From Pseudomonas sp. S06B 330 (lineage in GTDB: Bacteria > Pseudomonadota > Gammaproteobacteria > Pseudomonadales > Pseudomonadaceae), in the NCBI RefSeq assembly GCF_002845275.2, contig NZ_CP088149.1:3034501-3098500 (forward strand): a stretch of DNA of 64,000 nucleotides. The letters are read 5' to 3'. The number at the start of each line of letters is the position of its first letter. The stretch's first letter is position 1. Positions 633 to 20,764 of the stretch are shown here, piece after piece. The position numbers and the translations under genes were made by a program. The notes below the pieces were generated by a model that saw only the letters and a program-made list of their open reading frames with translations, was not told where the DNA came from and made no database searches.

Positions 633-2411
633 TCACAGTTGCTCGGCGTCGAGCAGGTACAGGCTGGCGCTGCCGGCCTTGATGGTGGCGGTCAACGAGT
701 GGATACGCGGCAACAGGCGTGCGAAGTAGAAGCGTGCAGTGCCCAGCTTGCGGGTGTAGAACTCGGCTTGCTCCGGTTGCTTGAGGGCGACATCGGCCAT
801 CTGTGCCCACATGTAGGCATAGAGCGTGTAACCAAACACATGCAGGTATTCGACCGCCGCCGCGCCAATTTCCTGAGGGTTACCCTGTGCACGGTCCAAC
901 ACCCAGGCGGTCAGCTCATCCAGGTTGGTCACGGCCGCCAGCAGCGGCGCGCTGAATTCAACTCGCGAACGCTCCAGCGCACTGGCGAACGCCTTGATCT
1001 GCGAGGACAGCACGCTGTAAGCGCGACCACCGTCAGCGACCAATTTGCGGCCCAAAAGGTCCATGGCCTGGATACCGTTGGTACCTTCGTAGATCTGGGT
1101 GATACGGCAATCGCGGATCAGTTGTTCCTGACCCCATTCGCGGATGTAACCGTGGCCGCCGAAAATCTGTTGGCCATGGACCGTCGTTTCCAGGCCCATG
1201 TCGGTGAGGAAGGCCTTGGCCACAGGCGTCAGCAGCGCAACCTGGGCGTCGGCGCGACTACGCTCGTCGGCGTCATCGCTGTATTTGGCCAAGTCCAATT
1301 GCAAGGCAACATAGGTGGAGAAGGCTCGCCCGCCTTCGTTCAAGGCTTTCATGGTCAACAGCATGCGCCGCACATCCGGGTGCACAACGATCGGGTCGGC
1401 AATCTGCCCGGCAGCAACCGGCCCTGTTGGTGCACGGCTTTGCAGACGCTCACGGGCGTACTCGATCGCGTTCTGATAGGAGCGCTCACCCAGCGCCAGG
1501 CCCTGGATGCCCACGCCCAGGCGTTCGTAGTTCATCATGGTGAACATGGCATTCAAGCCTTTGTTCAGGTCACCGACCAGATAGCCCGTGGCGCCATCGA
1601 AGTTCATCACGCAGGTGGCTGAAGCCTTGATCCCCATCTTGTGCTCGATGGAACCGCAGCTCACCGCGTTGGCGGCGCCCAACGAGCCGTCTGCCTCGAC
1701 CATAACCTTGGGTACCAGGAACAGCGAGATGCCCTTGGCGCCGGCCGGTGCATCGGGCAACTTGGCCAACACCAGGTGGATGATGTTTTCAGTCAGATCC
1801 TGCTCACCGCCGGTGATGAAAATCTTTGTACCGCTGATGCGGTAGCTGCCATCGGCTTGCGCCTCGGCACGGGTGCGAATCAAGCCCAGATCGGTACCGG
1901 CATGCGGCTCGGTCAGGCACATCGAGCCCGTCCAGCGCCCTTCGTACATGGCTGGCAGGTACTGTTGCTTGAGCGCTTCACTGGCGTGATTGAGCAGTGA
2001 CAAACACGCTCCGGCGGTGAGCATCGGGTACAGACCAAAGGACAGGTTGGCGGCGTTGAGCATTTCCTCAACCTGAGCGCCGATCACCTTCGGCATGCCC
2101 ATGCCGCCGTATTCCGGCGACCCCGCTACACCGACCCAACCATCTTCGGCATAGCGCTGATAGGCCTGAGCAAAGCCATCCGGGGTGATTACCCGACCGG
2201 CTTCCCAGCGGCAACCCTGTTCGTCACCGCTACGGTTAAGCGGTGCCACCACCTCGGCGATGACCTTGCCGGCCTGTTCAAGAATGGCCTTGGCGGTATC
2301 GGCATCGACATGTTCGGCCAACGCCGGAATCCGTGACCAAACGTCCGGGATGGCGAAGACCTCGTTGAACAGAAATTCCATGTCGCGCAAAGGTGGTTGG
2401 TAATCAGACAT
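633..2411 (-). CDS. Acyl-CoA dehydrogenase, DmdC-like long form
   Basis: 592-residue FAD-dependent acyl-CoA dehydrogenase that would introduce a 2,3-double bond into an acyl-CoA. It is longer than the usual 380-400 residues because of extra N- and C-terminal segments, as in the DmdC/AcdA-like subfamily. Visible marks are PEYGGMG near residue 100, the TEPHAGTD flavin/substrate segment near 167, and IYEGTNGIQ near 440 with the canonical catalytic Glu. The ATG overlaps the stop of the RND gene by 8 bp, so translational coupling is likely. Together with the ligase downstream it could activate and oxidise one acyl substrate. The physiological substrate cannot be read from sequence. Confidence 0.93.
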   Translation of the reverse strand: MSDYQPPLRDMEFLFNEVFAIPDVWSRIPALAEHVDADTAKAILEQAGKVIAEVVAPLNRSGDEQGCRWEAGRVITPDGFAQAYQRYAEDGWVGVAGSPEYGGMGMPKVIGAQVEEMLNAANLSFGLYPMLTAGACLSLLNHASEALKQQYLPAMYEGRWTGSMCLTEPHAGTDLGLIRTRAEAQADGSYRISGTKIFITGGEQDLTENIIHLVLAKLPDAPAGAKGISLFLVPKVMVEADGSLGAANAVSCGSIEHKMGIKASATCVMNFDGATGYLVGDLNKGLNAMFTMMNYERLGVGIQGLALGERSYQNAIEYARERLQSRAPTGPVAAGQIADPIVVHPDVRRMLLTMKALNEGGRAFSTYVALQLDLAKYSDDADERSRADAQVALLTPVAKAFLTDMGLETTVHGQQIFGGHGYIREWGQEQLIRDCRITQIYEGTNGIQAMDLLGRKLVADGGRAYSVLSSQIKAFASALERSRVEFSAPLLAAVTNLDELTAWVLDRAQGNPQEIGAAAVEYLHVFGYTLYAYMWAQMADVALKQPEQAEFYTRKLGTARFYFARLLPRIHSLTATIKAGSASLYLLDAEQL

Positions 2412-4929: not shown

Positions 4930-5997
4930 TTATTCGACATCGAGCGTGCGTACACCACGCTCACCCACCAGCACCAGGTCGGTTGCCGCCGCGAATGCCG
5001 CGCCGGTTACCGGGGTACGTGCGGTTTGGCTGAATTGAGCAAAACTGACACCGTCGTCATGACTGATCAGCACATCGCCTGCCTGGCTCAACAGCCACAG
5101 CTGGCCGGCACTGTCCAGGCTTGCTGCGGTGATGCTATTGCGCAGGCCAGTGGTCACCGGCTGCCAGTGCTGGCCGCCATCAGTGCTGCGCAGCACATTG
5201 CCGCGCAAGCCAAAGGCCAACAGCGCCCCCGGCTTACCGACCGCGCCAAACAAGGTGCCGCTATAAGGAATGTTCAGGCGGGTGAAGTGTTGGCCATCAG
5301 CGGCCAGTTTCAGCAACAGGCCCTGTTCACCGGTGATGTACAGCGCACCATCGACACTGGCCAGGCTGGTCAGGTGCAACGCTTGCGGGTTGTCGCTGCG
5401 TTCCAGCCACGGTGTCCAATGCTGGCCACCATCCTGGGTGTGCAACAACAGATTGAATACGCCAACGGCAAAGCCGTGTTGCTCATCGGCAAACCAGACA
5501 TCGAGCAAAGGCTTGTCGGCGCCCTCTTGCACCAGACGCTCGCTTTCACCGATCAAGGTTGCCCAGCGATCGTCGTCTGGCGAGGCCTGGGCCTGAGCGC
5601 GGTAGTAGGCCAGCACCTGCTCGCCGAGCACGCGACCATCCAGTTGCTTTTGCCAACTGGCGCCGCCATCGCGGCTGTGCAGAATCACCCCGTCGTTGCC
5701 CACCGCCCAACCCTGCTCGGCGCTGGGAAAACTGACCGCGTTGAGGTCGGCACTGGCCGGCACTTGCGCCTGCTGCCACTGCTTGCCGTTGTCATCGGAA
5801 TACACAATGTGCCCGCGCGGGCCCACCGCTACCAGGCGCGCGCCGGCGCTGGTCACATCCCGCAACGGGCTCACGGTCGCCAAGGCACTGGGCATCGCCG
5901 GCATATCCAGCACATCCATGTAAGGTGCGGCCTGTGCCGCGCCTTGAAGAGCGGCCCACGTCAACATCAACGCGGTACAGCGCTTGAGAAAAAACAT
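4930..5997 (-). CDS. Ycf48/BNR-like beta-propeller protein, exported
   Basis: 355-residue protein with an N-terminal signal peptide (hydrophobic run ending AAQAA near residue 23) and repeated Ycf48/BNR-type blades of the form YSDDNGKQW, HSRDGGASW, HTQDGGQHW and RSTDGGQHW. This suggests a periplasmic beta-propeller scaffold. Related proteins (photosystem II assembly factor Ycf48) act in membrane-complex assembly; no photosynthetic role is implied here. I chose ATG at 5997 because GGAGG lies seven bases upstream and the signal peptide starts there; a longer reading frame extends nine codons further. It sits between DUF1329 and RND genes and probably helps assemble or couple that export system. 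Confidence 0.85.
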   Translation of the reverse strand: MFFLKRCTALMLTWAALQGAAQAAPYMDVLDMPAMPSALATVSPLRDVTSAGARLVAVGPRGHIVYSDDNGKQWQQAQVPASADLNAVSFPSAEQGWAVGNDGVILHSRDGGASWQKQLDGRVLGEQVLAYYRAQAQASPDDDRWATLIGESERLVQEGADKPLLDVWFADEQHGFAVGVFNLLLHTQDGGQHWTPWLERSDNPQALHLTSLASVDGALYITGEQGLLLKLAADGQHFTRLNIPYSGTLFGAVGKPGALLAFGLRGNVLRSTDGGQHWQPVTTGLRNSITAASLDSAGQLWLLSQAGDVLISHDDGVSFAQFSQTARTPVTGAAFAAATDLVLVGERGVRTLDVE

Positions 5998-6093
5998 ACT
6001 CGATCCTCCGGATCGCCGCTGCACGCAGCAGGCTGCTCAACCAACGGTCCGCCATCGCGTGGATGCCGGACCGTACCTACCCTGTGGATCTAC

Positions 6094-7452
6094 TCAGCGA
6101 ATACCGGCCCCGGCCAGGGATTCCGGCGACCACTGGGTCTTGGACAGTGGATCGATGTAGCGGATACCGCCGTAGGCACCGACCACGCCGTTCAGGTTGT
6201 AGGTGCCGCCGATCAGGTCGTAGATCATGAAGGGCGTGGCATCCGGGGTCTGTTTGTCGTAGCTCTGGCTCAGGAAGGCAAACGAACCACGGTACAGCTG
6301 GCCGCGGGCGTCGTACTGGTCGGAGGCCAGAGCGATCCAGCTGTCTTCGTCGAGGTAGAAGCGACGCTTGTGATAGATATGGCGAGCGCCGGACTTGAGC
6401 TTGCCCTCAACCACCCACACCCGGTGTTTTTCCCAGCGCACGAATTCGGGCGCCAGATGGTTTGGCGTGGTCAGTGTTTTGATGTTGGTGTTATAGGTGA
6501 GTTTGTAGGTGTTGTACGGCACGTACATTTCCTGCTTGCCCACCAGGGTCCAGTCGTAGCGGTCCAGGGCGCCGTTGAAGACAAACACGTCATCGTAGGT
6601 ACCCGAGCCCGAGGTGCCTGGGTTCGGTGTGTCGTAGGCCAGGTTTGGCGCCAGCTTGACCCGACGTTGACCCGGCAGGTATTGCCAGGCGCTGCGCGGT
6701 TGCACCAGCGGGTTGGCGGCATCGCGCAGCATCATCGCTTCGCCGGCACGGCGGGCCGGCGCGGTGTACACCAACTTCATCTGGTAGTAGGTGTCTTTGG
6801 CACCGATGGTTTTGTTCATGTCCTCGTAGATTGGGTAGCTGATGTTCGCTTGTCCGGTGGTGGACAGCGACGCTACACCGGCAGAGTCGACGTTCCACGA
6901 GTCGTACTTGGCGGCCATGCTCACGCCCTGGTAGCGCAGGAGAAAGTTCCACATCGCCTCGGCGCCGGTTTGCGGAATCGGGAACGGGATGCCTGGCAGC
7001 ACGTTGTCAACAGCCGTACCGCCTTCCTGGCTCTTGGCACCGACGGCATTTTTCAGGGTGTTGTCCAGCACCGGCTGAGGCAGTGCCACAGTACGGTGGG
7101 TGGGGTAGACATCGACCCGGAAGGTCGGGAAGCGCTTGAGCAGCTCCAGGGTGGTCGCGGTGAGCTGACCTTTGTACTGGTCGACGTTCTTGCCATCGAT
7201 CACCATCAACGGTTTTTCCCCGGCAAACGGGTCTGGACGCATGCTGTCGCCGCTCTTGTAGCTGGCCGGTGGGGTCACCAGGCCGCCTTGGTAAGCGGGA
7301 ATCGAACCGTCGGCGTTGGCGCCTGATTCAGCGCCAATTCGGGTCAGGCTGGTGCCCAGGCGGGCGGCCTGATCACTGGAGACAGCTGCGTGGGCAGTAG
7401 TGATGGTTGCCAGCGACAGGCATGTGGCTAATAAGGTATGCACGAAATTCAT
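6094..7452 (-). CDS. DUF1329 family periplasmic protein
   Basis: 452-residue secreted protein with a clean signal peptide (cleavage after TTAHA, about residue 22), covering the DUF1329 family over its whole length. The family is predicted to have a LolA/LolB-like lipid-binding fold and is found almost always next to DUF1302. Start ATG at 7452 is taken because the signal peptide begins there and AGGA lies 12 bases upstream; the longer frame to 7497 would overlap the DUF1302 stop. It lies 41 bp after DUF1302 and before the Ycf48-like gene. A role in carrying hydrophobic molecules across the periplasm is inference. Confidence 0.9.
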   Translation of the reverse strand: MNFVHTLLATCLSLATITTAHAAVSSDQAARLGTSLTRIGAESGANADGSIPAYQGGLVTPPASYKSGDSMRPDPFAGEKPLMVIDGKNVDQYKGQLTATTLELLKRFPTFRVDVYPTHRTVALPQPVLDNTLKNAVGAKSQEGGTAVDNVLPGIPFPIPQTGAEAMWNFLLRYQGVSMAAKYDSWNVDSAGVASLSTTGQANISYPIYEDMNKTIGAKDTYYQMKLVYTAPARRAGEAMMLRDAANPLVQPRSAWQYLPGQRRVKLAPNLAYDTPNPGTSGSGTYDDVFVFNGALDRYDWTLVGKQEMYVPYNTYKLTYNTNIKTLTTPNHLAPEFVRWEKHRVWVVEGKLKSGARHIYHKRRFYLDEDSWIALASDQYDARGQLYRGSFAFLSQSYDKQTPDATPFMIYDLIGGTYNLNGVVGAYGGIRYIDPLSKTQWSPESLAGAGIR

Positions 7453-7493
7453 GATTATTGTTTTCCTGCGTGATGTCTGAAGGAAGACGTGAC

Positions 7494-9449
7494 TCAAAAA
7501 GTGGTTTTAACAGTGAGGTAAAGCGCGCCACGGTCCTCAGTGGTGGCACCGCCGCCAGAGAAGGAGGCATAACCTCCGCCGTAGCAGGTGTAGTCCTGCT
7601 CGCCGTCCAGGGCATTAGGAGTCGCGCCATCGGTCTGGCCGTTTTTGCACGACTGCGATTTGCCAAAGCTGTCGACGTACTTGAGGTCGACGAAATATTG
7701 GTTGTAGACCGCGGCGCCAACGCCCACGGCGTAGTTGCCGGTGTCCTCGGCGCCGCCACCCTGTACAGGTGAAACGCCATCGATGCCGACGTTGACCGAC
7801 AGCGGCATGCTCAGGTCAACGCCTGGCATGACCTGGTACCAGGTCGGAGTGAAGTTGACCGCGATACCCCAGTTGTCACGGGTCGGCTTGTCGATGCCGC
7901 GGTAGCTGCTTTTGCCCTTGTACAAGGCTTCGTTGTGGCCATCGAGTTTGAGCAGGTTGCTGTAGAACAGCTCGCCCAACAGGGTGGCGCTGTCGAACAG
8001 CGGTGTGTCGCCGATGCTCATCAAACCGTTGAGGGTCCAGTGCAGGGTCTGGCCAGTGGCACCAAGACCGTCGCCATCACTGGGTACGTCATAGACCACA
8101 CCGCTGCTGGGCAGGCGTGGAGGCAACAGACCGAAGCCACCGCCCAGCCCACCTTGCCCTGGCGCACTGACAATGGCCGGAATACTGGACAGCGGCATGT
8201 TGTGGCGGATGTTCAGGTCACTACCGACACTGATCCCGGCTACGTCTTTGGAAAGGCTCAGGCCGTAGACGTCAATGTTGTCGGCGTAAGCAAACTGGTA
8301 CGAGGCACTTTGCAGTGAGTTGTAGAGGTTGCCGACCGCGCCTTGGGGGCTGCCCGGTGGTGTACCGAACGGGCCACGGGATACAGTCAGGCCACGGGTA
8401 TCGAGCCAGGCTTGAGGAAGAATCTCCGAGGTCTTGCGGTAGTAGAAACCGAGCGTGCCGCCCAGCCATTCCGGCGACCACTTGGCCATGACACCCCAAT
8501 CGCCACGCTTGTCCGGGGTCAAGTCGTTGCCACGGCGGATACTGGTCAGCGCCCCCTGCACCGGGATCAGGCCTGGGGTGCCGGTATGACCGAGCAAGAA
8601 GCTCTGGGCACCCTCACCCACCACGTCCGAACCGCCATAATAGGTGCCCGCTTCTGGCAGCCTGGCAGCATCCCAATCAAGGAAATACTGGGCGCCAATG
8701 GTCAGCTCAGGATTGACCAGAAACGAGGTAGACAGCTGATTGCGCGGCACGAACAGTTCTTTGGCTTCGGTGCCAGGCGATGCGGCAAGCTTCGCCAGGT
8801 CCAGGCCCGACTGCCCATAGCTGAGCGAGTGCACTGGGTTGAGCAGTGTTTCACCCCAGAACAGGTTGTGCTGACCGAGTTTGCCGCTCAGCTCCGAGCT
8901 GTCGCCAACTTCGGTGCGCATGAACACGAAGGCATCGAGCACTTCACCCGACGGGCCGCTGTAGTAACGCTGGGCATAGTTGCTCAGGTGCGGGCTGCCC
9001 AGGGGCGTACCGGTACCGGGCAAGCCATTGAGGCTCGGGTTGATACCAGAGCTGTCACCATTGCCGTTGACGAAGGGGTTGGAGTTCGAACCGGTGTTGT
9101 CATAGGCCTTGTCGTACCAGCTGGCAGCACTGACGCGAAAGCCCATGTTGCCCTGGTAGATCACGTCCAGTTCGGTCAGCAGGTCGACACGGTTGGTGAT
9201 ATTGGTGCCGGCCTTGCGGAAGTTGTAGTCGCCGTCGTTGTTGTTCGGCGTGGCCAGCATGCGCTTGTCGGCGCTTTCGGTGCGCACCCCGTAGTTGTAC
9301 TTGACGGTGTTGTCCAGACGCACGGCCCAGTCTTCGTTACCGGTATCGACTTCGAACGCCTGGGCGCCAGGCAGTGCGAGCAAACCGATGGCGCAGGCGA
9401 GCAGATGACGCTGCGATGTCACAGCGCAAAGAGTGCGGTGTTTTGGCAT
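7494..9449 (-). CDS. DUF1302 family predicted outer-membrane beta-barrel
   Basis: 651-residue exported protein of the DUF1302 family. It has a signal peptide in the first 33 residues (AIGLLALPGAQA), followed by a Gly/Asn/aromatic-rich sequence with alternating strands, and ends in an aromatic C-terminus (LYLTVKTTF) typical of Bam-assembled outer-membrane barrels. I chose ATG 9449 (GGAG nine bases upstream); 21 upstream codons in the same frame look non-coding. It is the first envelope gene of the DUF1302-DUF1329-Ycf48-RND set and follows the hydrolase gene by 85 bp. Likely the outer-membrane element of the system; substrate unknown. Confidence 0.9.
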   Translation of the reverse strand: MPKHRTLCAVTSQRHLLACAIGLLALPGAQAFEVDTGNEDWAVRLDNTVKYNYGVRTESADKRMLATPNNNDGDYNFRKAGTNITNRVDLLTELDVIYQGNMGFRVSAASWYDKAYDNTGSNSNPFVNGNGDSSGINPSLNGLPGTGTPLGSPHLSNYAQRYYSGPSGEVLDAFVFMRTEVGDSSELSGKLGQHNLFWGETLLNPVHSLSYGQSGLDLAKLAASPGTEAKELFVPRNQLSTSFLVNPELTIGAQYFLDWDAARLPEAGTYYGGSDVVGEGAQSFLLGHTGTPGLIPVQGALTSIRRGNDLTPDKRGDWGVMAKWSPEWLGGTLGFYYRKTSEILPQAWLDTRGLTVSRGPFGTPPGSPQGAVGNLYNSLQSASYQFAYADNIDVYGLSLSKDVAGISVGSDLNIRHNMPLSSIPAIVSAPGQGGLGGGFGLLPPRLPSSGVVYDVPSDGDGLGATGQTLHWTLNGLMSIGDTPLFDSATLLGELFYSNLLKLDGHNEALYKGKSSYRGIDKPTRDNWGIAVNFTPTWYQVMPGVDLSMPLSVNVGIDGVSPVQGGGAEDTGNYAVGVGAAVYNQYFVDLKYVDSFGKSQSCKNGQTDGATPNALDGEQDYTCYGGGYASFSGGGATTEDRGALYLTVKTTF

Positions 9450-9534
9450 TGCGATGACTCCACGAATTGTTATTTTTGTTATCGCCGCCCGACTTGTGCG
9501 GGCGTTGGTCAAGCGTCCGTGCAGTGCTGCAGGA

Positions 9535-10101
9535 TTATTGGTCGAGCTGGTGAATCAAGGTTTCGGCCAACGGCCAAGGGCCGAATCCGGAAGCCGGGTT
9601 GAGGTGGCCAACATTGCCCAGTTGCAACAGCTCGCTACCCCAGCCCTCGGCCATGGCCGCGACGGCACTGAGGCTTGCCAGGTGATCGTCGCTGCTGGCC
9701 GCAACGATGCTGGGAAATGGCAGTGTGGTGATCGGCAGCGGCGCCCAGCCATTGGCGCGCAAGGTATCCGGGCTTGGATAGGCGGCGGGCCACTGGGCCT
9801 GCAGATCTGGGGGGGCGGCCAGTAACGCGCCTTTGATCGGCCGGTCATAGCGTGCGGCCCAATGGGCGACCATCAGCACACCGGCGCTGTGCGCCACCAG
9901 CAGCACATCGCCGTCGATCTGCTCCAGCTCGCGCTGGATCGCTTCGACCCGGGCATTGCAATCAAGCCCGTTGACCTGCAGAGGAGGCACTGCGCGAACC
10001 TTGCTCAGGCGCGCCTGGAGCAGCGTCTGCCAATGCTCGGCGACATGGTCGCGCAGGCCAGGGACGATCAGAACAGTAGCGGCGGTATGCAATCTTTCCA
10101 C
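9535..10101 (-). CDS. RBBP9/YdeN-type alpha/beta hydrolase
   Basis: 188-residue small serine hydrolase of the RBBP9/YdeN family. The nucleophile elbow is AHSAGV (Ser near residue 78), the acid is probably in SSDDH, and the catalytic His is in VGHLN. The GTG start at 10101 gives the family's usual length of about 190 residues, with AGG upstream; the open frame continues to 10311 but that part contains the promoter/operator and reads as non-coding. It is the first gene of the leftward operon. It could release an acid from an ester substrate for the downstream ligase and dehydrogenase (inference). Confidence 0.82.
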   Translation of the reverse strand: MERLHTAATVLIVPGLRDHVAEHWQTLLQARLSKVRAVPPLQVNGLDCNARVEAIQRELEQIDGDVLLVAHSAGVLMVAHWAARYDRPIKGALLAAPPDLQAQWPAAYPSPDTLRANGWAPLPITTLPFPSIVAASSDDHLASLSAVAAMAEGWGSELLQLGNVGHLNPASGFGPWPLAETLIHQLDQ

Positions 10102-10158: not shown

Positions 10159-10222
10159 ACAGTAATCACCCCTCCCCTGGGGTGCTTTACATTGAGCGTC
10201 AGTGACTTCACATTTGATGACA
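10159..10222 (-). promoter_or_regulatory. Operator A: AraC-type direct repeat plus promoter
   Basis: On the + strand, GGGGTGCTT (10179-10187) is followed by two boxes 21 bp apart: CATTGAGCGTCA (10190-10201) and CATTTGATGACA (10211-10222). Read leftward, the conserved AAGCAC of the first block can serve as a weak -35, with TACTGT (complement of 10159-10164) as -10 and a 17-bp spacer. It lies about 80-120 bp upstream of the hydrolase GTG. Two boxes exactly two helical turns apart are the classic AraC-family layout. The same element occurs at 17932-17995. Confidence 0.65.
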
Positions 10223-10292
10223 GCGCGACGGGCGCCCGTCAGGCGGGCGTGGGCCAAGTCTCCCGAGCGCTCATTAAGGTAGCGAAACCGGC

Positions 10293-10321
10293 TTTTCATT
10301 TGACGACACACAGGCTATAAA
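10293..10321 (+). promoter_or_regulatory. Promoter of the AraC gene with overlapping operator half-site
   Basis: TTTTCA (10293-10298) and TATAAA (10316-10321) are separated by 17 bp and precede the AraC start codon by 55 bp. The -35 region overlaps CATTTGACGACA (10297-10308), which differs at one base from the distal box of operator A. This suggests autoregulation. An imperfect hairpin at 10324-10348 would be in the 5' leader. Confidence 0.5.
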
Positions 10322-10376
10322 AAGCGACCCGCCGCAGAAGCGGGACGCCTAATGAGAATGCGTGGAAAACAATAAA

Positions 10377-11387
10377 ATGACCGCCCTCGTCCGTGCTGCA
10401 AGCTTGACCAATTACCTCGAAGTCTCGCGCCACGTGGGGTTGAACCCCCATGCCTTGCTCGCCCAGGTCGGCCTCAGTGCCGCCTTGCTCGACGATCCCA
10501 ATCAACGCCTTGCCGTTTCAAGCGTCATTAGCCTGCTGGAGGAATCCGCGCGGGTCAGTGGCTGTGAATCCTTTGGCCTGCGCATGGCTGAATTGCGCCA
10601 GCTTTCGGACTTTGGCGAGATCAGCCTGCTGCTCAGCCACCAGCGCACCTTGCGCGATGCCTTGCTGGTGATCGTGCAATACCGTCATCTGCTCAACGAC
10701 GCCTTGGCCATCCATATCGAAGATGCGGGCAAAAGCGTGATCATCCGTGAAGAAGTGGTCAGTGATCTGCCGCACAGCAGCCGACAGGCCACCGAGCTTG
10801 CCATTGGTGTCATGCGCCGCCTGTGTGCGGCGGTTCTGGGCGCGCACTGGCATCCGATCAGTGCCAATTTCACCCACGCTGCCCCGGCGGACCTGGCCAT
10901 TCACCGGCGGATTTTCGGTTGCAAACTGGTGTTTGGCAGCGAGTTCAATGGCATTGTCTGCGCCGCGGCTGACCTCGATGCCGCCAACCCACTGGCCAAC
11001 GAAGCCATGGCGCGCCTGGCCCAGCGGTACCTGGACACTCTTCAGGCCAGCGGCAAACTGTCGTTGGAACTGGAAATGCGCAAAACCATCTACCTGCTGC
11101 TGCCTATGGGCCGGGCGACCATCGAACAGGTGGCACAAACCCAGGGCATGAACGTGCGCACCCTGCAGCGGCGCCTGGAAGAATGCGGGGTGACCTTCAG
11201 CGACCTGATCAACGGCGTACGTCGTGACCTGGTGATTCGGTACCTGGAAAACCCCAGCTATTCGCTGGGGCGGATTGCCGACATGCTGGGCTACTCGATG
11301 CCGAGTTCATTTACTCGCTGGTTTATTGCGCAGTTCGGCATGCCGCCGGCAACCTGGCGAGCCCAGCATGGCCGCGCTGAACCGTAG
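10377..11387 (+). CDS. AraC-family regulator (PF12625 type)
   Basis: 336-residue transcriptional regulator. It has an OruR/ArgR-type N-terminal ligand domain (start MTALVRAASLTNYLEVSRH) and a C-terminal double helix-turn-helix, with MNVRTLQRRLEECGVTF and the second helix around LGYSMPSSFTRWF. ATG 10377 is preferred over GTG 10362 because family members begin with this Met. It is divergent from the hydrolase-DUF1302-RND-ligase operon, whose promoter carries an AraC-like operator, so it is the best candidate for its activator; its own promoter holds a similar box. The stop codon TAG (11385-11387) lies inside the first bases of a REPIN. Confidence 0.92.
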   Translation: MTALVRAASLTNYLEVSRHVGLNPHALLAQVGLSAALLDDPNQRLAVSSVISLLEESARVSGCESFGLRMAELRQLSDFGEISLLLSHQRTLRDALLVIVQYRHLLNDALAIHIEDAGKSVIIREEVVSDLPHSSRQATELAIGVMRRLCAAVLGAHWHPISANFTHAAPADLAIHRRIFGCKLVFGSEFNGIVCAAADLDAANPLANEAMARLAQRYLDTLQASGKLSLELEMRKTIYLLLPMGRATIEQVAQTQGMNVRTLQRRLEECGVTFSDLINGVRRDLVIRYLENPSYSLGRIADMLGYSMPSSFTRWFIAQFGMPPATWRAQHGRAEP

Positions 11388-11494
11388 CCGCCGCCAGGCT
11401 GCGATCGGGCGTGAAACGGCCGTCATTCGGGCCCATTGTGGAGGCTGGATGACGACTGCTTCGCAGCCGATCGCAGCCTGGCGGCAGCGGCTAC
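11384..11494. repeat. REPIN between convergent genes
   Basis: Two inverted REP units: GTAGCCGCCGCCAGGCTGCG at the left end and its near-complement ending GCAGCGGCTAC at the right end, 111 bp in total. It fills the gap between the AraC gene and the convergent sulfate-exporter gene and supplies the AraC stop codon. It can fold into a long stem and may work as a bidirectional transcription or decay barrier. The same family occurs at 22052-22558, 47632-47766 and 58415-58551. Confidence 0.9.
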
Positions 11495-11502
11495 GGGAAT
11501 TG

Positions 11503-12513
11503 TCAAAGCCCCCAATGCATCAGGGCTAGCACCAACAAGACAAGAAACACGGTCTCGCCCACCATCAGGGCAATCGGCTTGAAGCCCACCTTGGCCAGTT
11601 CCTTGAGCTGAGTCTTCATCCCCAGCGCACTGATCGCCACCACCAAGCACCAGCGCGACAGGTCATTGACCCCGCCCTGCACCACCGTTGGCACCCAGCC
11701 AGTACTGTTCAGGCAGGCCAGCAATACAAAGCCGACCGCGAACCAAGGCAACAAGGGTGGCCGTTGCCCGGTGGCGTCATCCCCTGCCCGTCGGGTAATC
11801 ATCGCTGCAACGACAATCACCGGCAGCAACATCGCCACCCGCATCAACTTGACCACCGTGGCAATGTCGCCGGTCTCGGTCGACATGCTGTAGCCCGCGC
11901 CAACCACCTGCGCCACATCATGAATCGTGGCCCCGAGGAATACCCCAGCCTGAGGCGGTGAAAGCTGCAACCAACCGGCAATCATCGGATAAAGGATCAT
12001 CGCCAGGGTCGACAGCGCCGACACGCCAATCACGGTGAACAACGTGGCATGTTCTTTCTGCTTGTGGTGCGGTAAGGCGGCAGCCAGTGCCAAGGCCGCC
12101 GACGCGCCACAGATGGCCGTTGCGCCGCCGGTGAGCATGCCGAACAAGCGATTGAAACCCATCGCCTTGGCCACCACCATCGACACACCGATGGTCACCG
12201 CAACAATGATGATTACCAGCGCCACCGGCTTCCAACCCAGGCTGGCGATCTGTTCCAGGGTGATGCGCATGCCTAACAACGCCACGCCCACGCGCAGCAC
12301 GGTGCGCGCCGTAAACTCAATGCCGGCCTTGCAGCGACCGTCAACCGAGAGAAAATTCAAGGCCATGCCCAGCAACAGGGCGAAGAGCATCACCGGCGCA
12401 TCATAATGCTCGCTAAGAAAGCTGGCCGCGCCAGCCGCAATCAGGCTGACGACAAAACCCGGCGCAAGCTCGCGCACGCGGTGGTTGACGGCGGCGATGG
12501 CAACAGTGCTCAT
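11503..12513 (-). CDS. YeiH/UPF0324 putative sulfate (sulfite) exporter
   Basis: 336-residue polytopic membrane protein of the PSE family (PF03601), with about ten hydrophobic spans and the conserved GGATAICGASAALALAAAL segment near residue 110. Relatives near sulfonate-degradation genes are thought to export sulfite or sulfate; the best studied E. coli YeiH has no firm function. Start ATG overlaps the Rieske stop by 4 bp (ATGA), so it is the last gene of the leftward operon. In this context it could relieve inorganic sulfur released by the TauD-type enzyme, which is inference. Confidence 0.9.
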   Translation of the reverse strand: MSTVAIAAVNHRVRELAPGFVVSLIAAGAASFLSEHYDAPVMLFALLLGMALNFLSVDGRCKAGIEFTARTVLRVGVALLGMRITLEQIASLGWKPVALVIIIVAVTIGVSMVVAKAMGFNRLFGMLTGGATAICGASAALALAAALPHHKQKEHATLFTVIGVSALSTLAMILYPMIAGWLQLSPPQAGVFLGATIHDVAQVVGAGYSMSTETGDIATVVKLMRVAMLLPVIVVAAMITRRAGDDATGQRPPLLPWFAVGFVLLACLNSTGWVPTVVQGGVNDLSRWCLVVAISALGMKTQLKELAKVGFKPIALMVGETVFLVLLVLALMHWGL

Positions 12514-12836
12514 TGGCCGGACTCCTCGGCATCGATAACGATAAACAGCTGCTCGCCCTGGCGCTCGACCGGGTAGTTGGCGACCTTGAGCTGGGTAGAA
12601 TTGAGCAGGTACCCGCTGGCCAGGTCGAAACGCAGGCCATGGGCGCAACACTGGATCACACGCCCTTCCAGGCGTCCGCCACACAGGGAAGAGCCTTGGT
12701 GCGGGCAACTGTCATCAATGGCGTAAAACTGGTCGGCTACGTTGAACAGTGCCAGGCTCTTGTCCGCGAACTCCAGCAGTACACGGCCGCCACGCTCCGG
12801 CACCTTGGCCCCTGGCACAGGGTAGCGGTAACTCAT
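12510..12836 (-). CDS. Small Rieske [2Fe-2S] protein
   Basis: 108-residue soluble Rieske ferredoxin-like protein. The cluster ligands are visible as CPH (near residue 43) and CCAH (near residue 63), in the order C-X-H ... C-X2-H. No signal peptide or membrane anchor is present. Such proteins pass electrons to oxygenases, but no ring-hydroxylating oxygenase alpha subunit is in this operon. It may serve an oxygenase encoded elsewhere or have a redox role with the neighbouring FrnE-like protein. It overlaps both neighbours by 4 bp, indicating tight coupling. Confidence 0.9.
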   Translation of the reverse strand: MSYRYPVPGAKVPERGGRVLLEFADKSLALFNVADQFYAIDDSCPHQGSSLCGGRLEGRVIQCCAHGLRFDLASGYLLNSTQLKVANYPVERQGEQLFIVIDAEESGQ

Positions 12837-13483
12837 GCCAGAACCGCCTCTGCCAGCGCCTCACGCATGGCCGCGAGCAACACCTCGGCCGGTTGCGCAC
12901 CGACCACTTGCAGCTCATTGATGCGAAAACATGGCACGCCGTTTGTGGCGCCATCATCGGCCGTAACGAACGGGCTCGCATCGCCACGTAAACAGTCGGC
13001 GACTTGTGCCGGGCTCAAGCCACAGGCCTGGGCAATTTGCATCAAGGTAATCGGGTCGCCCAGGTCCTTGCCCTGCTCAAAGTAGGCCGCAAACAGCTGC
13101 CCCAACAGGGCGTCGACCTGCTCCGGCTTGCCCAGGGCGACGGCGCGCTGCAGCAAGCGATGGGCATCGGCGGTGTTGGGCATGCGGCTGATGCGGGAAA
13201 AATCGATCGTCACCCCTACCGCCTCGGCCGCCGCACGAACCTGGGCTTGACGCAGGCGTACGGCCTCGTCACTGCCCAGGCGCTTGCGATAGAACGCTTC
13301 GAACGGCTGACCGGTCCTGGCCATGTCCGGCAGCAGTTGCACCCCGCGCCAACGCAGGCTGACCTCAACCTGTGGTTGCTCCACGCGCAATTGCGCGAGC
13401 GCCTGCTGCAGTTGACGCTGGCCGATCAGGCACCAGGGGCAGATAAAGTCAAAAAATACATCAATGGACAACGCGTGTTTCAC
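12833..13483 (-). CDS. FrnE-like DsbA-family oxidoreductase
   Basis: 216-residue cytosolic thioredoxin-fold protein of the FrnE/DsbA family (PF01323), with the CPWC active-site motif near residue 16 and the characteristic GVPCFRINE cis-Pro segment near residue 180. No export signal. Family members include disulfide isomerases and 2-hydroxychromene-2-carboxylate isomerase relatives. It overlaps the MFS stop and the Rieske start by 4 bp each. In this operon it might act as a glutathione- or thiol-dependent isomerase on the pathway substrate; this is a guess. Confidence 0.9.
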   Translation of the reverse strand: MKHALSIDVFFDFICPWCLIGQRQLQQALAQLRVEQPQVEVSLRWRGVQLLPDMARTGQPFEAFYRKRLGSDEAVRLRQAQVRAAAEAVGVTIDFSRISRMPNTADAHRLLQRAVALGKPEQVDALLGQLFAAYFEQGKDLGDPITLMQIAQACGLSPAQVADCLRGDASPFVTADDGATNGVPCFRINELQVVGAQPAEVLLAAMREALAEAVLA

Positions 13484-14802
13484 GGTTTTACCTCCTGAAT
13501 CTGCGCCGCGCCTGGCGCTGTTTGCTGCAAGCCCTCTAAGCGGGCCATGTCGCTGTGGTAATGGCGCTTGGCAATAAAGAACACCGCGGCGGCGCCAATG
13601 CTGATCAGTGGCACCAGCTGGAACGCGGCATGCAGGCCGATCAGATCGGAAACCCGGCCAGTGATCAGCGGCCCCGTCGCCAGGCCCAACAGGTTGTTGG
13701 CCAGGGTCAAGGTGGCAAAGGCCGTGCCGTGTACGGAATAGTGCGTCAGGTTGGCAACCATGGCGCTCGAAGGGCCGTTGGTGCCCGCTGCAATCATCAT
13801 CCCCAGGCAGATCAGCACCAGTTGCGCGGTACCCGATGGCAATGCAAAAGCCAGCGACAGCAGCAGGCAGCTACCCAGGCAATAGGCAATAGCCAAGCTG
13901 ATTTTACGGTCCGGGCGCTGACGACCGAGGCGGTCGCAGAGCATGGCGCAGAGAATCATGCCGATGCCACTGCACAACACGATGATGGCGGCGACAACGC
14001 CAGCCTTATCGGTGCCCATGTCGTAGTAACGGTTCAGGTAGCTGGGCATCCACACAATCACCGTACCGCCGACAAACAACTGCAAGCCGCTGGCAACATA
14101 GGCGGCGATGACCGAACGACTGCCGTACAGGGTGTGCAGCGGGCGAGCAATCTTGCACGCGGCTTGAGCGGCGCGCTTGGGGGCGATTTTCGCTTCTTTG
14201 ACAATCAACGGGTAGAGCAATGCCAGCAACAGGCCGAACAGGGCCATACCGGCAAACGCCCAACGCCAGCCAAAATGCTGGGCCATCACACCACCTAAGG
14301 CCATGCCCAGCACCGAGCCGAACATGCCGCCGGCCATGAAGGCCCCGGCCAAGGTCGCGCGCATGTCCCGGGGGAACACCGCGACCACCACGGCGATGCC
14401 GACACTGCCATAGGCAGCTTCGCCGACACCCACCAGAAAACGGGCGACAAACATCTGTTGGTAATTTTCTGCCAAGGCGCAGCCGAGGGTTGCCAGGCTC
14501 CAGAGCACGGCCATCAGCACCAGGCTCTTGATCCGGCCAAAACGGTCGGCCATCAGGGACAGCGGAAAGGTCAGCAGCCCAACCATCAGCGCAACGATAC
14601 CGCTGAGCAGGCCCAACTGACTGTCACTCAGCGCCCATTCGCTCTTGAGCAACGGGAACACAGCATTAAGCACCTGCCGCGACATGTAGTCGGAGATCAG
14701 CAAGCCGAAGGTCAAGGCAAAGACAATCCAGGCATAACGCCGTGGAATGCCACGTGAAGTGTCGGCACCATCATCTGTGGCGCTGGCGATATAGGCGGCC
14801 AT
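13480..14802 (-). CDS. MFS transporter
   Basis: 440-residue major facilitator with 12 predicted spans. The MFS signature DRFGRIKSL lies between spans 2 and 3, and the second-half equivalent CDRLGRQRPDRK near residue 295. It resembles the anion:cation symporter/aromatic-acid group that imports organic acids. It lies 110 bp downstream of the BKACE gene, behind a strong hairpin, and overlaps the FrnE-like start. Presumed importer of the pathway's substrate. Confidence 0.92.
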   Translation of the reverse strand: MAAYIASATDDGADTSRGIPRRYAWIVFALTFGLLISDYMSRQVLNAVFPLLKSEWALSDSQLGLLSGIVALMVGLLTFPLSLMADRFGRIKSLVLMAVLWSLATLGCALAENYQQMFVARFLVGVGEAAYGSVGIAVVVAVFPRDMRATLAGAFMAGGMFGSVLGMALGGVMAQHFGWRWAFAGMALFGLLLALLYPLIVKEAKIAPKRAAQAACKIARPLHTLYGSRSVIAAYVASGLQLFVGGTVIVWMPSYLNRYYDMGTDKAGVVAAIIVLCSGIGMILCAMLCDRLGRQRPDRKISLAIAYCLGSCLLLSLAFALPSGTAQLVLICLGMMIAAGTNGPSSAMVANLTHYSVHGTAFATLTLANNLLGLATGPLITGRVSDLIGLHAAFQLVPLISIGAAAVFFIAKRHYHSDMARLEGLQQTAPGAAQIQEVKP

Positions 14803-14876
14803 GCTGCCTCCTCTGATTGTCTGGCGTAAGTCTTGTTGTTATGAGAAGCCTGACTGACAGCGCAATGGACTGTGGC

Positions 14877-14905
14877 GGGTCGGCACCAGCGTGGTGGGCC
14901 GACCC
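14877..14905 (-). terminator. Hairpin between BKACE and MFS genes
   Basis: GGGTCGGC (14877-14884) pairs with GCCGACCC (14898-14905), and the loop itself has ACCA/TGGT pairing. No U-run follows in the leftward direction, so it is more likely an mRNA-stabilising or attenuating hairpin than a full terminator. It would allow higher expression of the upstream QOR-TauD-BKACE genes than of the MFS-exporter part. Confidence 0.55.
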
Positions 14906-14912
14906 TGCCCGG

Positions 14913-15965
14913 TCAGCCGCGCTGTGGCACACCCTTCTGGCCTGGCTGGCGGTTTGGCGCCATGCCGTTGGCTTTTAGGGTCTGTTCGATGCTGCTGTAC
15001 TGCTCGCCGATGCGATAAATAGCGCGAGCTTCTTTACCGGTGGCAATTTCACGGCCCAACTCGTGGGCGACGCGCACAGTCTGCTGGATCTGCTGCACCG
15101 AGCCAAAGCGCTTGCCGTGCTGGTCAATGATAGTGTCTTCGTTGCCGCAACGTGGGTGCAGGCCCATGGCCAGGGCCATGGTGTTGAACGGCAGCACGTT
15201 CTTGAGCAGCGATTCGGCGGTCAAGGTGCAACCGTCTGGCGCGCGGTGAATGAAGTTGAAGAAGTTGAACGGGTTCGGGCCATCAAAGCCGCCGCCGATA
15301 CCGATCCAGGTCAGGTTCAGCGGGCCCATGTAGTCGCCGCGACGCACGATGCGATCGAGGGTTTCCAGGGCATGCATGCCGGTGAGCTGGAAGTGCGGCT
15401 GGATGTTGCTCGCCTGCAGACGACGCAGGTGCTCGCGAACCCAGGCTGGGCCGGCCGGTACGGTCATTTCACTGTACGCCGCGTGAATCGCCGGGTGGGC
15501 CAGGGAGGTGCCTTCCAGGTATTCCGGATACAGCAGCTCCATGATGTTCATTTGTGTGGTGTTGATCGCCACCGTGACCTGATCAGGCTTGGGCGTCAGT
15601 TCGGCGAGCATGTGACGGGTGTCGTCACTGAGCCATTTGGCCGCTTCGCCATCGCTTTCCGGGGCGAAGGAGATCGAGCCACCGACCTGAATAATCATAT
15701 CCGGCACCGCTTCGCGTACACCGGCAATCAGTTCGTTGAATTTGGACAGGCGTTTGGAGCCTTTGCCATCGAGTTCGCGCACATGCAAGTGGAGCACGGT
15801 GGCGCCCGCTTCATAGCAGTCAACGGCTTTCTGGACCTGTTCGTCCATGGTCAGCGGAATGTCTTCAGGGAAATCCTCAGGCATCCATTCCGGGCCATAA
15901 GGGGCGACGGTGATTACCACCTTTTCCATGTTTTCCGGGTGCAACGAATCGTCGAAGAATTGCAT
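14913..15965 (-). CDS. BKACE-family beta-keto acid cleavage enzyme (DUF849)
   Basis: 350-residue TIM-barrel enzyme of the Kce/BKACE family (PF05853). These Zn-dependent enzymes condense a beta-keto acid with acetyl-CoA and split it to acetoacetate and a new acyl-CoA. The metal site is indicated by VLHLHVREL near residue 60, and the C-terminal part shows GNEDTIIDQHGKRFGS. The specificity depends on a few residues that I cannot assign. It lies between the dioxygenase and the MFS gene of the same operon. A strong sign that the pathway passes through a 3-keto acid. Confidence 0.92.
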   Translation of the reverse strand: MQFFDDSLHPENMEKVVITVAPYGPEWMPEDFPEDIPLTMDEQVQKAVDCYEAGATVLHLHVRELDGKGSKRLSKFNELIAGVREAVPDMIIQVGGSISFAPESDGEAAKWLSDDTRHMLAELTPKPDQVTVAINTTQMNIMELLYPEYLEGTSLAHPAIHAAYSEMTVPAGPAWVREHLRRLQASNIQPHFQLTGMHALETLDRIVRRGDYMGPLNLTWIGIGGGFDGPNPFNFFNFIHRAPDGCTLTAESLLKNVLPFNTMALAMGLHPRCGNEDTIIDQHGKRFGSVQQIQQTVRVAHELGREIATGKEARAIYRIGEQYSSIEQTLKANGMAPNRQPGQKGVPQRG

Positions 15966-16034
15966 GCTTTGGTCCTCAGTCTTGTTATTGTCTTTTGTCC
16001 GCCAGGCAGCGGAGGGGTAATGCAGGTCGTGGTC

Positions 16035-16883
16035 TTAAAACGTGCGGTCGCCCTTGATCCCGGCGCGCTCCATCTTGCGGTGGCATGCGGGGTAATCCAT
16101 GACCGCGTAGTGTTGAGTGCTGCGGTTGTCCCAAATCGCAATGCTGTTGGGCTTCCAGCGCCAACGCACCTGGTACTCAGGCAGGTACGCCTGGCTGATC
16201 AGGTAGCGCAACAGATCAGAGGCGCCGGGGTTGGCATCCTGGCCGAACCGCACCCGTTGTGGGGTGTGGTAGTTGCTGAAATGGGTGGTGAAGGCGTTGA
16301 CGAACAGCACCTGTTCACCGGTCTCCGGATGAGTACGCACCACCGGGTGCTCGGCATCGGGGTACTGGGCCTTGAGCGCCAGGCGCTTTTCGATCGGCAT
16401 GTTGGCACCGAAGCTGGCTTCAATGCTGTGCCGGGCGCGCAGGCCTTCAATCTTCTGTTTCACCTCATCCGGCAGGTTCTGGTATGCCAGGACCATGTTC
16501 GCCCACATGGTGTCACCACCCACGGGCGGGCACTCCACACAGCGCAACACACAGCCCATGGGCGGTGCGTCACGCCAGGTGGCGTCGGTGTGCCAGGCGT
16601 TCTCATAACGATCAGCTGGCTGGTCCGGGCGCTTGTAGATCTGCACCAGGCCCGGATGCTCCGGGTCGCTGCCGGCTACTGGATGGTCTTCCAGCTCACC
16701 AAAGCGCCGGGCAAATGCCACATGGTCGGCGCGGCTAATGTTCTGGTCACGCAAGAACAGCACTCGGTGCTTGAGCAATTGCGCACGGAGCTGCTCGAAC
16801 AGATCATCATCGTGTACCGCATCGGCCAGGTTGACCCCGGACACTTCGGCGCCGATGGCACAGGTCAGTTGTTCGATGTGCAT
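16035..16883 (-). CDS. TauD/TfdA-family Fe(II)/2-oxoglutarate dioxygenase
   Basis: 282-residue non-haem iron dioxygenase. The facial triad is visible as WHTDATW (His and Asp near residues 96-98) and a distal His in STQHYAVMDY near 255; the 2-oxoglutarate-binding Arg is probably in CHRKMERAG. The segment PPVGGDTMWANM matches the TauD family. ATG 16883 is chosen (GAGG eight bases upstream). Family members hydroxylate carbon next to sulfonate, ether or amine groups, causing release of sulfite, an alcohol or an amine. The YeiH exporter in the operon favours a sulfonate, but the substrate is not proven. Confidence 0.93.
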   Translation of the reverse strand: MHIEQLTCAIGAEVSGVNLADAVHDDDLFEQLRAQLLKHRVLFLRDQNISRADHVAFARRFGELEDHPVAGSDPEHPGLVQIYKRPDQPADRYENAWHTDATWRDAPPMGCVLRCVECPPVGGDTMWANMVLAYQNLPDEVKQKIEGLRARHSIEASFGANMPIEKRLALKAQYPDAEHPVVRTHPETGEQVLFVNAFTTHFSNYHTPQRVRFGQDANPGASDLLRYLISQAYLPEYQVRWRWKPNSIAIWDNRSTQHYAVMDYPACHRKMERAGIKGDRTF

Positions 16884-16896
16884 GCTACAGCCCTCT

Positions 16897-17877
16897 TCAG
16901 ATGACGAAGATTGACGAACCGGTGGTTTTGCGCGCTTCCAGGTCACGGTGGGCCTGAACAGCATCCTGCAGGGCGTAGTGCTGGTTGATCTCGATCTTGA
17001 TTCGGCCACTGCCGACGTGATCGAACAGCTCACCGGCAAGATCGGCCTTCTCCGCCGGGTCGGCGATATAGTCGGCCAGCGCCGGGCGGGTCATGAACAG
17101 CGAACCTTTCATGGCCAGCAGCTGCGGATCGAACGGCGGGATGGTGCCGGAGGCGGTACCAACGCAAACCATCAGGCCACGACGCTTGAGCGAGTCGAGC
17201 GACGCCATGAAGGTAGTCTTGCCAACACTGTCGAACACCACATTGACACCAACGCCGTCGGTCAACTCACGCACCCGCGAGGCCACATCTTCATGGCTGT
17301 AGTTGATGGTGTGGGTGCAACCATGGGCGCGAGCCACTTCAGCCTTCGCGTCAGTGGAGACCGTACCGATCACGTTGACGCCGAGCAGCTTGGCCCACTG
17401 CGAAACGATCAGGCCAACGCCACCGGCAGCGGCGTGCAGCAATACCGTGTCACCGGGCTTGAAGTCATACAGGCGGCGCATCAGGTAGGCCGAGGTCAGA
17501 CCGCGCATGGTCATCGCCGCTGCGGTTTCGAAAGCGATGGTTTCCGGCAGTTTGATCAGTGCGGCGGCGCCGATCAGGCGTTCGTCGCAATAAGCCCCCA
17601 GCGTGTTGATAAAACCGGTGTAGGTCACACGGTCGCCAACCACGACGTTGGTCACCCCCTCCCCCACAGCCTGGACCACCCCGGCTGCCTCAACACCGAT
17701 GCCGTTGGGCAGCGGGATCGGGTAAGTGCCGTTGCGGAAATAGGTGTCAGCGTAGTTCAGGCCAACTGCAACCTGGCGCAGGCGGACCTGGCCCGGGCCT
17801 GGGTCACCGACTTCGGCATCCTCATAACGCAAGACCTCAGGACCACCGCTTTCATAGAAACGTACGACTTTGGACAT
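16897..17877 (-). CDS. Quinone oxidoreductase (zeta-crystallin-like MDR)
   Basis: 326-residue zinc-free medium-chain dehydrogenase/reductase of the quinone oxidoreductase family. The N-terminal GroES-like domain contains GLNYADTYFRNGTYP; the NADPH-binding Rossmann segment is AAAGGVGLIVSQWAKLLG near residue 150. ATG 17877 has GGAG eight bases upstream and is preferred to the start six codons earlier. First gene of the leftward operon, preceded by an AraC-type operator at 17932-17995. It may reduce an enone or quinone intermediate. Confidence 0.92.
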   Translation of the reverse strand: MSKVVRFYESGGPEVLRYEDAEVGDPGPGQVRLRQVAVGLNYADTYFRNGTYPIPLPNGIGVEAAGVVQAVGEGVTNVVVGDRVTYTGFINTLGAYCDERLIGAAALIKLPETIAFETAAAMTMRGLTSAYLMRRLYDFKPGDTVLLHAAAGGVGLIVSQWAKLLGVNVIGTVSTDAKAEVARAHGCTHTINYSHEDVASRVRELTDGVGVNVVFDSVGKTTFMASLDSLKRRGLMVCVGTASGTIPPFDPQLLAMKGSLFMTRPALADYIADPAEKADLAGELFDHVGSGRIKIEINQHYALQDAVQAHRDLEARKTTGSSIFVI

Positions 17878-17931
17878 TCTTGTCACTCCAATCATCGATC
17901 TGGACGCATGGCGTCAGTTCAGGTTGATTGG

Positions 17932-17995
17932 ACTCTATGCCCAACGCTTGCGGGGTGCTTCGCATCGGACGACAAGGGTTTTTCATTTGATGACA
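17932..17995 (-). promoter_or_regulatory. Operator B: same element as operator A
   Basis: GGGGTGCTT (17952-17960), CATCGGACGACA (17963-17974) and CATTTGATGACA (17984-17995) are arranged exactly as in operator A, with 21 bp between the two boxes. Read leftward, AAGCAC is a possible -35 and TAGAGT (complement of 17932-17937) a -10, spacer 17 bp, again as in operator A. It lies 75-118 bp upstream of the quinone oxidoreductase ATG. 32 of 44 positions are identical between the two operators. Confidence 0.65.
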
Positions 17996-19572: not shown

Positions 19573-19679
19573 AGTCAGTGGCCTTATCATTTGATCCGTA
19601 ATGGATCTATCGGGAGTTCCACGCCGGCGCGATAAAGAACACGCCGGTAGAACCGGTGCCCGCACCAGGAACGACTCGA

Positions 19680-20732: not shown

Positions 20733-20764
20733 ACGCTACTACCCATCACGCCTGGAGAATAACA

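Follow-up and report, generated by a model that had tools for sequence, protein, structure and literature searches.

In the 64,000-nucleotide window of Pseudomonas sp. S06B 330 analyzed here (contig NZ_CP088149.1, positions 3,034,501 to 3,098,500), two leftward operons, hereafter A and B, are preceded by the same element of 41-44 bp. The first gene of operon A encodes a small serine hydrolase and that of operon B an NADPH:quinone reductase-like protein (QOR). The element would serve as operator and promoter for an activator of the AraC family whose gene lies between operons A and B. Sequence comparison among genomes established the operator, the genes that it precedes and its co-occurrence with this AraC protein. 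We give a probability of about 0.85 to the reading in which AraC activates a regulon of at least four units by which an amphiphilic organosulfonate is taken up and catabolised. That operon A, operon B, the sorAB gene pair and a phaC gene, the last two located elsewhere in the genome, belong to a single regulon appears nearly certain from these comparisons.

Two operators and the regulator gene between them

Operators A (10179..10222, minus strand) and B (17952..17995, minus strand) had been paired in the initial annotation, and its description of their likeness held. They agree at 32 of 44 positions; the distal boxes are identical (12/12) and the proximal ones agree at 8 of 12 positions; the box starts are 21 bp apart in both, and the minus strand shows AAGCAC followed, after 17 bp, by TACTGT or TAGAGT. 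Operator A comprises two direct-repeat boxes and the -35 of the operon A promoter and reads, on the plus strand, GGGGTGCTT-TA-CATTGAGCGTCA-N9-CATTTGATGACA, while operator B, the same element upstream of operon B, reads GGGGTGCTT-CG-CATCGGACGACA-N9-CATTTGATGACA. Written on the strand opposite transcription, the rough consensus is CATYNNRCGWCA-N9-CATTTSATGACA, with two 12-bp direct repeats 21 bp apart. When the boxes are compared inside one operator, they are alike at only 7 of 12 positions in A and 9 of 12 in B. Read along the transcribed strand, the distal box is followed by N9, the proximal box, 2 bp, AAGCAC (-35), 17 bp and the -10, so that 2 bp separate the boxes from a poor -35. Tandem direct repeats are in keeping with an AraC protein, and the element resembles the layout of the AraC/XylS family, in which tandem direct-repeat boxes about two turns apart stand beside the -35. 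A poor -35 next to an AraC site is a usual arrangement for activation via RNA polymerase contact, and the geometry of the operator suits activation from a site adjoining the -35. The distance of about 75-80 bp to the start codon, proposed for both operons, was correct for A (78 bp to the hydrolase start) and would apply to B only if QOR starts at the ATG at 17877 (75 bp) and not at the one at 17895 (57 bp).

The original comparison involved two sites in one window, as would be compatible with a recent duplication or a chance resemblance devoid of shared function. However, the best ungapped 44-mer match between dinucleotide shuffles of both intergenic regions was 29, none of 1000 shuffles reached 32, and the element is conserved across many Pseudomonas genomes and in other genera, where the box spacing and the boxes are kept while the filler changes. 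Duplication or chance was rejected by the shuffles and the conservation, and we give this explanation practically no weight. The core box CATTTGAYGACA occurs in exactly three copies in the 5,637,435-base genome (operator A, operator B and the araC promoter) and the reversed control in none.

The araC gene (10377..11387, plus strand) encodes a protein with a sensor N-domain (Arabinose_bd, PF12625, 3.2e-47) and a C-terminal double helix-turn-helix (HTH) domain (HTH_18, PF12833, 1.1e-17), which place it in the AraC/XylS family. Both this domain architecture and the location of the gene between target operons are shared with the catabolic activators of that family, and regulons of this kind, with AraC in control of catabolic genes, are known. 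The nearest NCBIfam model, QhpR, gives 187.3 bits, below its cut-off of 250. A 40% paralogue of AraC is encoded in the same genome (G000:C1:3690612-3691598, L164), with MFS, GGDEF and chemoreceptor genes among its neighbours.

The further box that had been claimed for the araC promoter is present there as a single copy, CATTTGACGACA (10297..10308, plus strand), 6 nucleotides before CTATAA, and its orientation relative to transcription is opposite to that in the operon operators. Of the 30 best araC loci, 24 have the box (up to 4 mismatches) at this same distance ahead of CTATAA. Because binding at this position would cover the promoter, AraC probably represses itself through this single box, which lies just ahead of the araC -10. 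We do not propose that the DNA loops between operator A and this box, since the spacings vary among relatives (about 37, 62, 75 and 86 bp) and no helical phase is kept.

Operator and regulator across genomes

The initial annotation had proposed to look for the element upstream of the orthologous operons in related genomes, and its prediction withstood that search. A degenerate 41-bp pattern, allowing up to 2 mismatches, gave 87 matches in 57 of 398 genomes of the same genus; the reversed pattern gave 0. To assign the gene behind each match, the proteins of the set were used as tblastn queries (E <=1e-8, same direction), and all 87 matches precede genes of the set: 43 the hydrolase, 34 QOR, 7 the sulfite-oxidase-type gene sorA, 2 the gene for the beta-keto acid cleavage enzyme (BKACE) and 1 the acyl-CoA ligase gene. 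Since A and B were the sources of the pattern, the hydrolase and QOR matches are those expected if the element is conserved; the sorA, BKACE and ligase targets emerged although they were absent from its construction. AraC (best E <1e-90) is encoded in 80 of the 398 genomes, and these 80 include all 57 that bear the operator. We also examined named loci, namely the best 80 of 547 brought in by the TauD-like protein of operon B, of which 59 belong to Pseudomonas and 21 to other genera. In the Pseudomonas loci the operator was found at 59/59 QOR genes and 46/46 hydrolase genes with a weight matrix (>=20 bits) that was built from the 57 genomes, so that the two sets are not independent, some of the named records being the same contigs. 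The same operator is thus found at each unit and is conserved at the orthologous units in other species, as expected of a single regulon.

Six loci outside Pseudomonas encode an AraC at least 56% identical to that of the window (Parahaliea, Pseudomaricurvus, Microbulbifer, two Rugamonas and Cupriavidus). The operator stands before QOR in all six, with 13 to 41 bits, and none of 200 shuffles reached the score. The remaining 15 non-Pseudomonas loci show no operator before QOR; in eight of them the run opens with the BKACE gene and not with QOR. In these eight, whose AraC is 39-49% identical, a scan of the whole locus found a diverged element between araC and the first gene in six. There it lies between araC and the BKACE gene (L121:6421, L122:6304, L131:6362, L138:6349, L153:6318 and L160:6390; AraC 47-49%), still contains two direct repeats and scores -13 to 3 bits, versus -18 to -27 bits in ten shuffles of one locus. 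These loci come from Paraburkholderia and Caballeronia and possibly represent a sister regulon with a changed operator and a changed HTH domain. In the second HTH, the Arg of the FTRWF motif is retained in the six loci with a close AraC and replaced in all eight with a distant one. Seven loci have no araC in the stretch, and no match was found at their genes (best anywhere -7 to -26 bits). Wherever the regulator was absent the operator was absent as well, both at sorA (0/5 AraC-lacking loci) and before QOR in these non-Pseudomonas loci (7/7 without a match above shuffle level), small numbers to be read knowing that araC may lie beyond the stretch. This joint divergence of regulator and operator is the strongest indication obtained here of AraC binding to the element. 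On these grounds AraC is very probably the direct regulator of the regulon.

The operator might instead be bound by another regulator, for example the MocR/GntR-type protein encoded divergently from operon B, with AraC merely travelling along. The MocR-type gene begins at 18073, adjoining operator B, and such a gene lies beside operon B in 9 of the 80 named loci; the other 71 show none in the fetched stretches of 7-21 kb. Moreover, all 57 operator-bearing genomes carry AraC, the araC promoter itself contains a box and, in other genera, conservation or divergence of the operator goes with that of AraC and its HTH domain. By the AraC co-occurrence and the absence of MocR from most of the fetched stretches, we regard MocR as an improbable binder.

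Six loci (L119, L120, L133, L140, L148 and L152, from Burkholderia, Trinickia and some Paraburkholderia) contain runs of QOR, TauD, BKACE, MFS and hydrolase genes. No such operator and no similar AraC were found in the fetched stretches, and these runs are perhaps the same pathway under another regulator.

Joined operons and distant members of the regulon

The proposal that operons A and B form one regulon, and possibly one pathway, gains support both from the conservation of the element and from genomes in which genes of the two operons are joined by position. In Rugamonas fusca and R. brunnea, the genes for DUF1302, DUF1329, BNR, MMPL, ligase, hydrolase, QOR, TauD, BKACE, MFS, DsbA and YeiH proteins form one run on the same strand with araC behind it (the AMP-forming ligase being recognised in R. 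fusca alone). Between hydrolase and QOR there is an operator match of about 20 bits, so the run may be two transcripts. In genome G045, the element stands before an MFS-DsbA-YeiH unit (4 mismatches) and before the hydrolase operon beside araC. A copy with 0 mismatches, 1.1 Mb from araC, precedes QOR and TauD, which are followed there by a protein 82% identical to the acyl-CoA dehydrogenase of operon A. The Rugamonas run and the G045 unit join genes of both operons and therefore argue for one pathway, and a run in Parahaliea points the same way. Operon B of genome G271, 82 kb away from araC, has retained its operator.

The initial annotation had limited the regulon to the two operons. They are indeed linked, but the set is larger, with operators also before sorA and a phaC gene. 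Searched with the degenerate operator (<=3 mismatches), the genome of Pseudomonas sp. S06B 330 shows four sites, before operon A, operon B, sorA and phaC, and the reversed controls gave 0. The sorA gene lies at 993 kb (L163; operator 993247-993285), encodes an Oxidored_molyb plus Mo-co_dimer subunit and is followed by a cytochrome c gene, a pair that we take to be SorAB. It resembles sulfite:cytochrome c oxidoreductases of the SorAB type in its subunit domains and in the cytochrome c gene that follows; unlike those systems, it stands behind an AraC operator. Six distal matches of the genus-wide search precede a sulfite-oxidase-type gene, five identified by Pfam (Oxidored_molyb plus Mo-co_dimer) and that of L076 by 90% identity. 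A cytochrome c gene was found behind it in five of the six loci (four by Pfam, L076 by similarity) and none was identified in L062; the seventh sorA match is at a contig end in G208. In all, sorA gave 32 matches in 31 genomes, and 30 loci were examined. The operator (<=5 mismatches) precedes the gene in 21 of 25 loci from genomes with AraC versus 0 of 5 from genomes without it.

The phaC gene, which encodes a polyhydroxyalkanoate (PHA) synthase, is found at 3.654 Mb with an operator (3654179-3654217) 78 bp upstream. Homologues at least 73% identical occur in 20 of the 398 genomes, and all 20 encode AraC. Thirteen copies have the operator, with 4-6 mismatches to the 41-bp pattern, and seven lack it; six of these seven share a contig with araC, at a distance of no more than about 6 kb, and the other adjoins an araC paralogue. 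Since each copy has either an operator or a position near araC or its paralogue, phaC is tied to the regulon. Among the best 80 of 547 named loci, six have a phaC at least 72% identical behind operon B.

Several observations weigh against this reading. In six of the 30 best araC loci the araC box was not found in the form searched for, and 23 of the 80 genomes with AraC show no operator when up to 2 mismatches are allowed; some of these genomes have sites at 3-4. The Cupriavidus operator is the weakest of its group (13.2 bits), and the whole-locus scan revealed no clear operator in L127 and L123, both with a distant AraC. Four sorA loci from genomes with AraC lack the operator, namely G015, the second copy in G367 (the first copy does have it) and 62-64% paralogues in G349 and G233. 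Finally, no BKACE gene was found in the fetched stretch of the Parahaliea run.

Operon genes and the predicted pathway

Operon A, all on the minus strand, starts with the small serine hydrolase (9535..10101, PF06821). It continues with an AmeA-like outer-membrane DUF1302 protein (7494..9512), an AmeB-like, LolA-like DUF1329 protein (6094..7497) and an AmeC-like protein with YCF48/BNR repeats (4930..6024), whose starts are uncertain, and with an AmeD-like RND transporter of the MMPL/HAE3-like kind (2404..4899). A long acyl-CoA dehydrogenase (633..2411) and the N-terminal part of an AMP-forming acyl-CoA ligase (1..621) follow; the ligase gene, starting near 621, is the last of the operon and continues beyond the left end of the window (L162). 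The last two proteins had been labelled DmdCB-like, a label that did not survive comparison with solved structures. The best PDB match of the dehydrogenase is 8png (1034.6 bits, versus 566.6 for 6ijc) and that of the ligase is 8hsy (626.2 bits, versus 343.7 for 6ihk), where 6ijc and 6ihk are presumably DmdC and DmdB. The Dmd pathway was rejected on the ground that both enzymes are closer to other proteins.

For the RND protein the best model is HAE3 (TIGR00921), yet its score is under the cut-off (151.3 versus 351.9 bits). Adjacent genes for DUF1302, DUF1329, COG4447/YCF48-type and HAE3 RND proteins constitute a gene set of the Ame type, the same four parts as in AmeABCD of Castellaniella defragrans (PMC6394551). 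AmeABCD is described there as an inducible efflux system next to catabolic genes and linked to monoterpenes. Operon A differs from that system by the added serine hydrolase, CoA ligase and long acyl-CoA dehydrogenase, and by co-control with the TauD/SorAB/YeiH set. In Pseudomonas putida, PP_0765/PP_0766 together with PP_2018/PP_2019, DUF1302/DUF1329 proteins with periplasmic and transporter partners, are needed for growth on Tween 20, and the accessible part of that report describes no link to TauD, BKACE or a sulfite oxidase (PMC10866462).

Operon B, also on the minus strand, encodes in order QOR (16897..17895, start at 17895 or 17877), a TauD-like alpha-ketoglutarate dioxygenase (16035..16886), BKACE (14913..15965), an MFS transporter (13480..14802), a DsbA/FrnE-like thioredoxin-fold protein (12833..13483) and a YeiH-type putative sulfate/sulfite exporter (11503..12513, start inferred). 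The coding part of the TauD gene begins near 16886, and the longer open reading frame overlaps QOR. Its product belongs to the TauD/TfdA superfamily by PF02668 (8.1e-67) and by the aligned iron-ligand motif WHTD...QHY, which it shares with TauD (1gqw, 3pvj). The closest solved relative is 5vn6 (548.6 bits); TauD 1gqw gives only 195.6 bits and differs in the segment before WHTD. The score with the taurine dioxygenase equivalog NF007104 is 256.6 bits, under the cut-off of 313, and the residues that we presume to contact the taurine amino group are not kept in the alignment. These two observations, suggestive only, led us to discard taurine itself, and the substrate of the enzyme is probably another compound. 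BKACE was assigned by PF05853 (199.2 bits, cut-off 24.8) and is under the cut-offs of all four NCBIfam models that it matched; the YeiH-type protein was assigned by PF03601 (249.7 bits, cut-off 24.5) and is under that of TIGR00698 (166.2 versus 232.6).

Divergent from operon B, on the plus strand, are the MocR/GntR-aminotransferase-type gene (18073-19572), a TIM-barrel gene (AP_endonuc_2, 19656-20732) and an MFS gene (20651-22033). Near regulon genes, two loci have a second BKACE (62%) and a second AraC (49-57%) (L065:18455-19901 and L073:5143-7419), and in seven others (L104, L106, L107, L116, L117, L124 and L132) the BKACE after TauD is only 61-62% identical. As these 61-62% BKACEs recur near regulon genes or after TauD, two BKACE subtypes seem to alternate. 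An extra pair of TauD (75-79%) and BKACE (60-64%) genes just upstream of operon B in L090, L132, L137 and L157 hints at a paralogous module.

Because the TauD-like dioxygenase and YeiH are combined with sorAB, the release of sulfite from a sulfonate is the simplest reading of the regulon. The Ame-like system and the MFS transporter would handle an amphiphilic organosulfonate, whose acyl chain would be processed by the ligase and the dehydrogenase. The TauD-like enzyme would then split the C-S bond and free sulfite, SorAB would oxidise the sulfite, YeiH would export the anion, and BKACE and PhaC would handle the carbon. Judged from the gene content, sulfonate catabolism is a reasonably likely function of the regulon, and the odds that the substrate is amphiphilic are slightly better than even. 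The Parahaliea run, which encodes an alkyl-sulfatase-like protein, a ligase and a fused sulfite oxidase-cytochrome protein, fits an amphiphilic sulfur compound. BKACE enzymes make acetoacetate, and our conjecture is that this acetoacetate feeds the PHA synthase. Rather tentatively, one may picture a so far unrecognised regulon for a lipid-like organosulfonate, with an Ame/ligase/dehydrogenase part for the acyl chain, a TauD-like desulfonating enzyme not acting on taurine, the sulfite dehydrogenase and YeiH for the sulfur, and a BKACE that passes acetoacetate to a PHA synthase specific to the regulon, so that a single AraC switch would control the storage of sulfonate carbon as polyester.

A regulon of the same composition could also serve another hydrophobic acyl compound, such as a lipid, an ester surfactant or a terpenoid acid; the TauD-like enzyme would then perform another hydroxylation, and SorAB and YeiH would deal with side products. 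Such a substrate would agree with the acyl chains to which the ligase and the dehydrogenase point, with the membership of phaC in the regulon and with the ties of the Ame-type system to monoterpenes (PMC6394551) and of the DUF1302/DUF1329 pair to Tween 20 (PMC10866462). However, three sulfur-linked functions are under common control (the TauD-like dioxygenase, YeiH and a cytochrome-linked sulfite dehydrogenase), the sorA operator is confined to loci from genomes with AraC (21/25 against 0/5), and a fused sulfite oxidase-cytochrome protein is encoded in the Parahaliea run; a substrate other than a sulfonate seems the less likely alternative. Some points nevertheless speak against sulfonate catabolism. 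By the names of the matches, sulfate esters and herbicides are further substrates within the TauD family, and BKACE, PhaC and QOR are not diagnostic of any particular sulfonate. The description of AmeABCD as an exporter means, by analogy, that the envelope system of operon A could serve tolerance and not uptake (PMC6394551).

The regulator, the operator, the target set and the pathway were not found among the papers listed by searches of the open-licence full-text literature, subscription journals being outside this coverage. Through the regulon, several families so far uncharacterised (DUF1302, DUF1329, a BKACE subtype, a TauD subtype and a PHA synthase) are connected with a single regulator; the TauD subtype occurs in Pseudomonas, the Burkholderia group and other proteobacterial genera. 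The window alone revealed two of at least four units, and the sulfite-oxidising unit, which is the best clue to the function, lies about 2 Mb away. The sharp 41-bp operator would be a handle for finding inducers, as a reporter on A or B would make the substrate question a simple screen.

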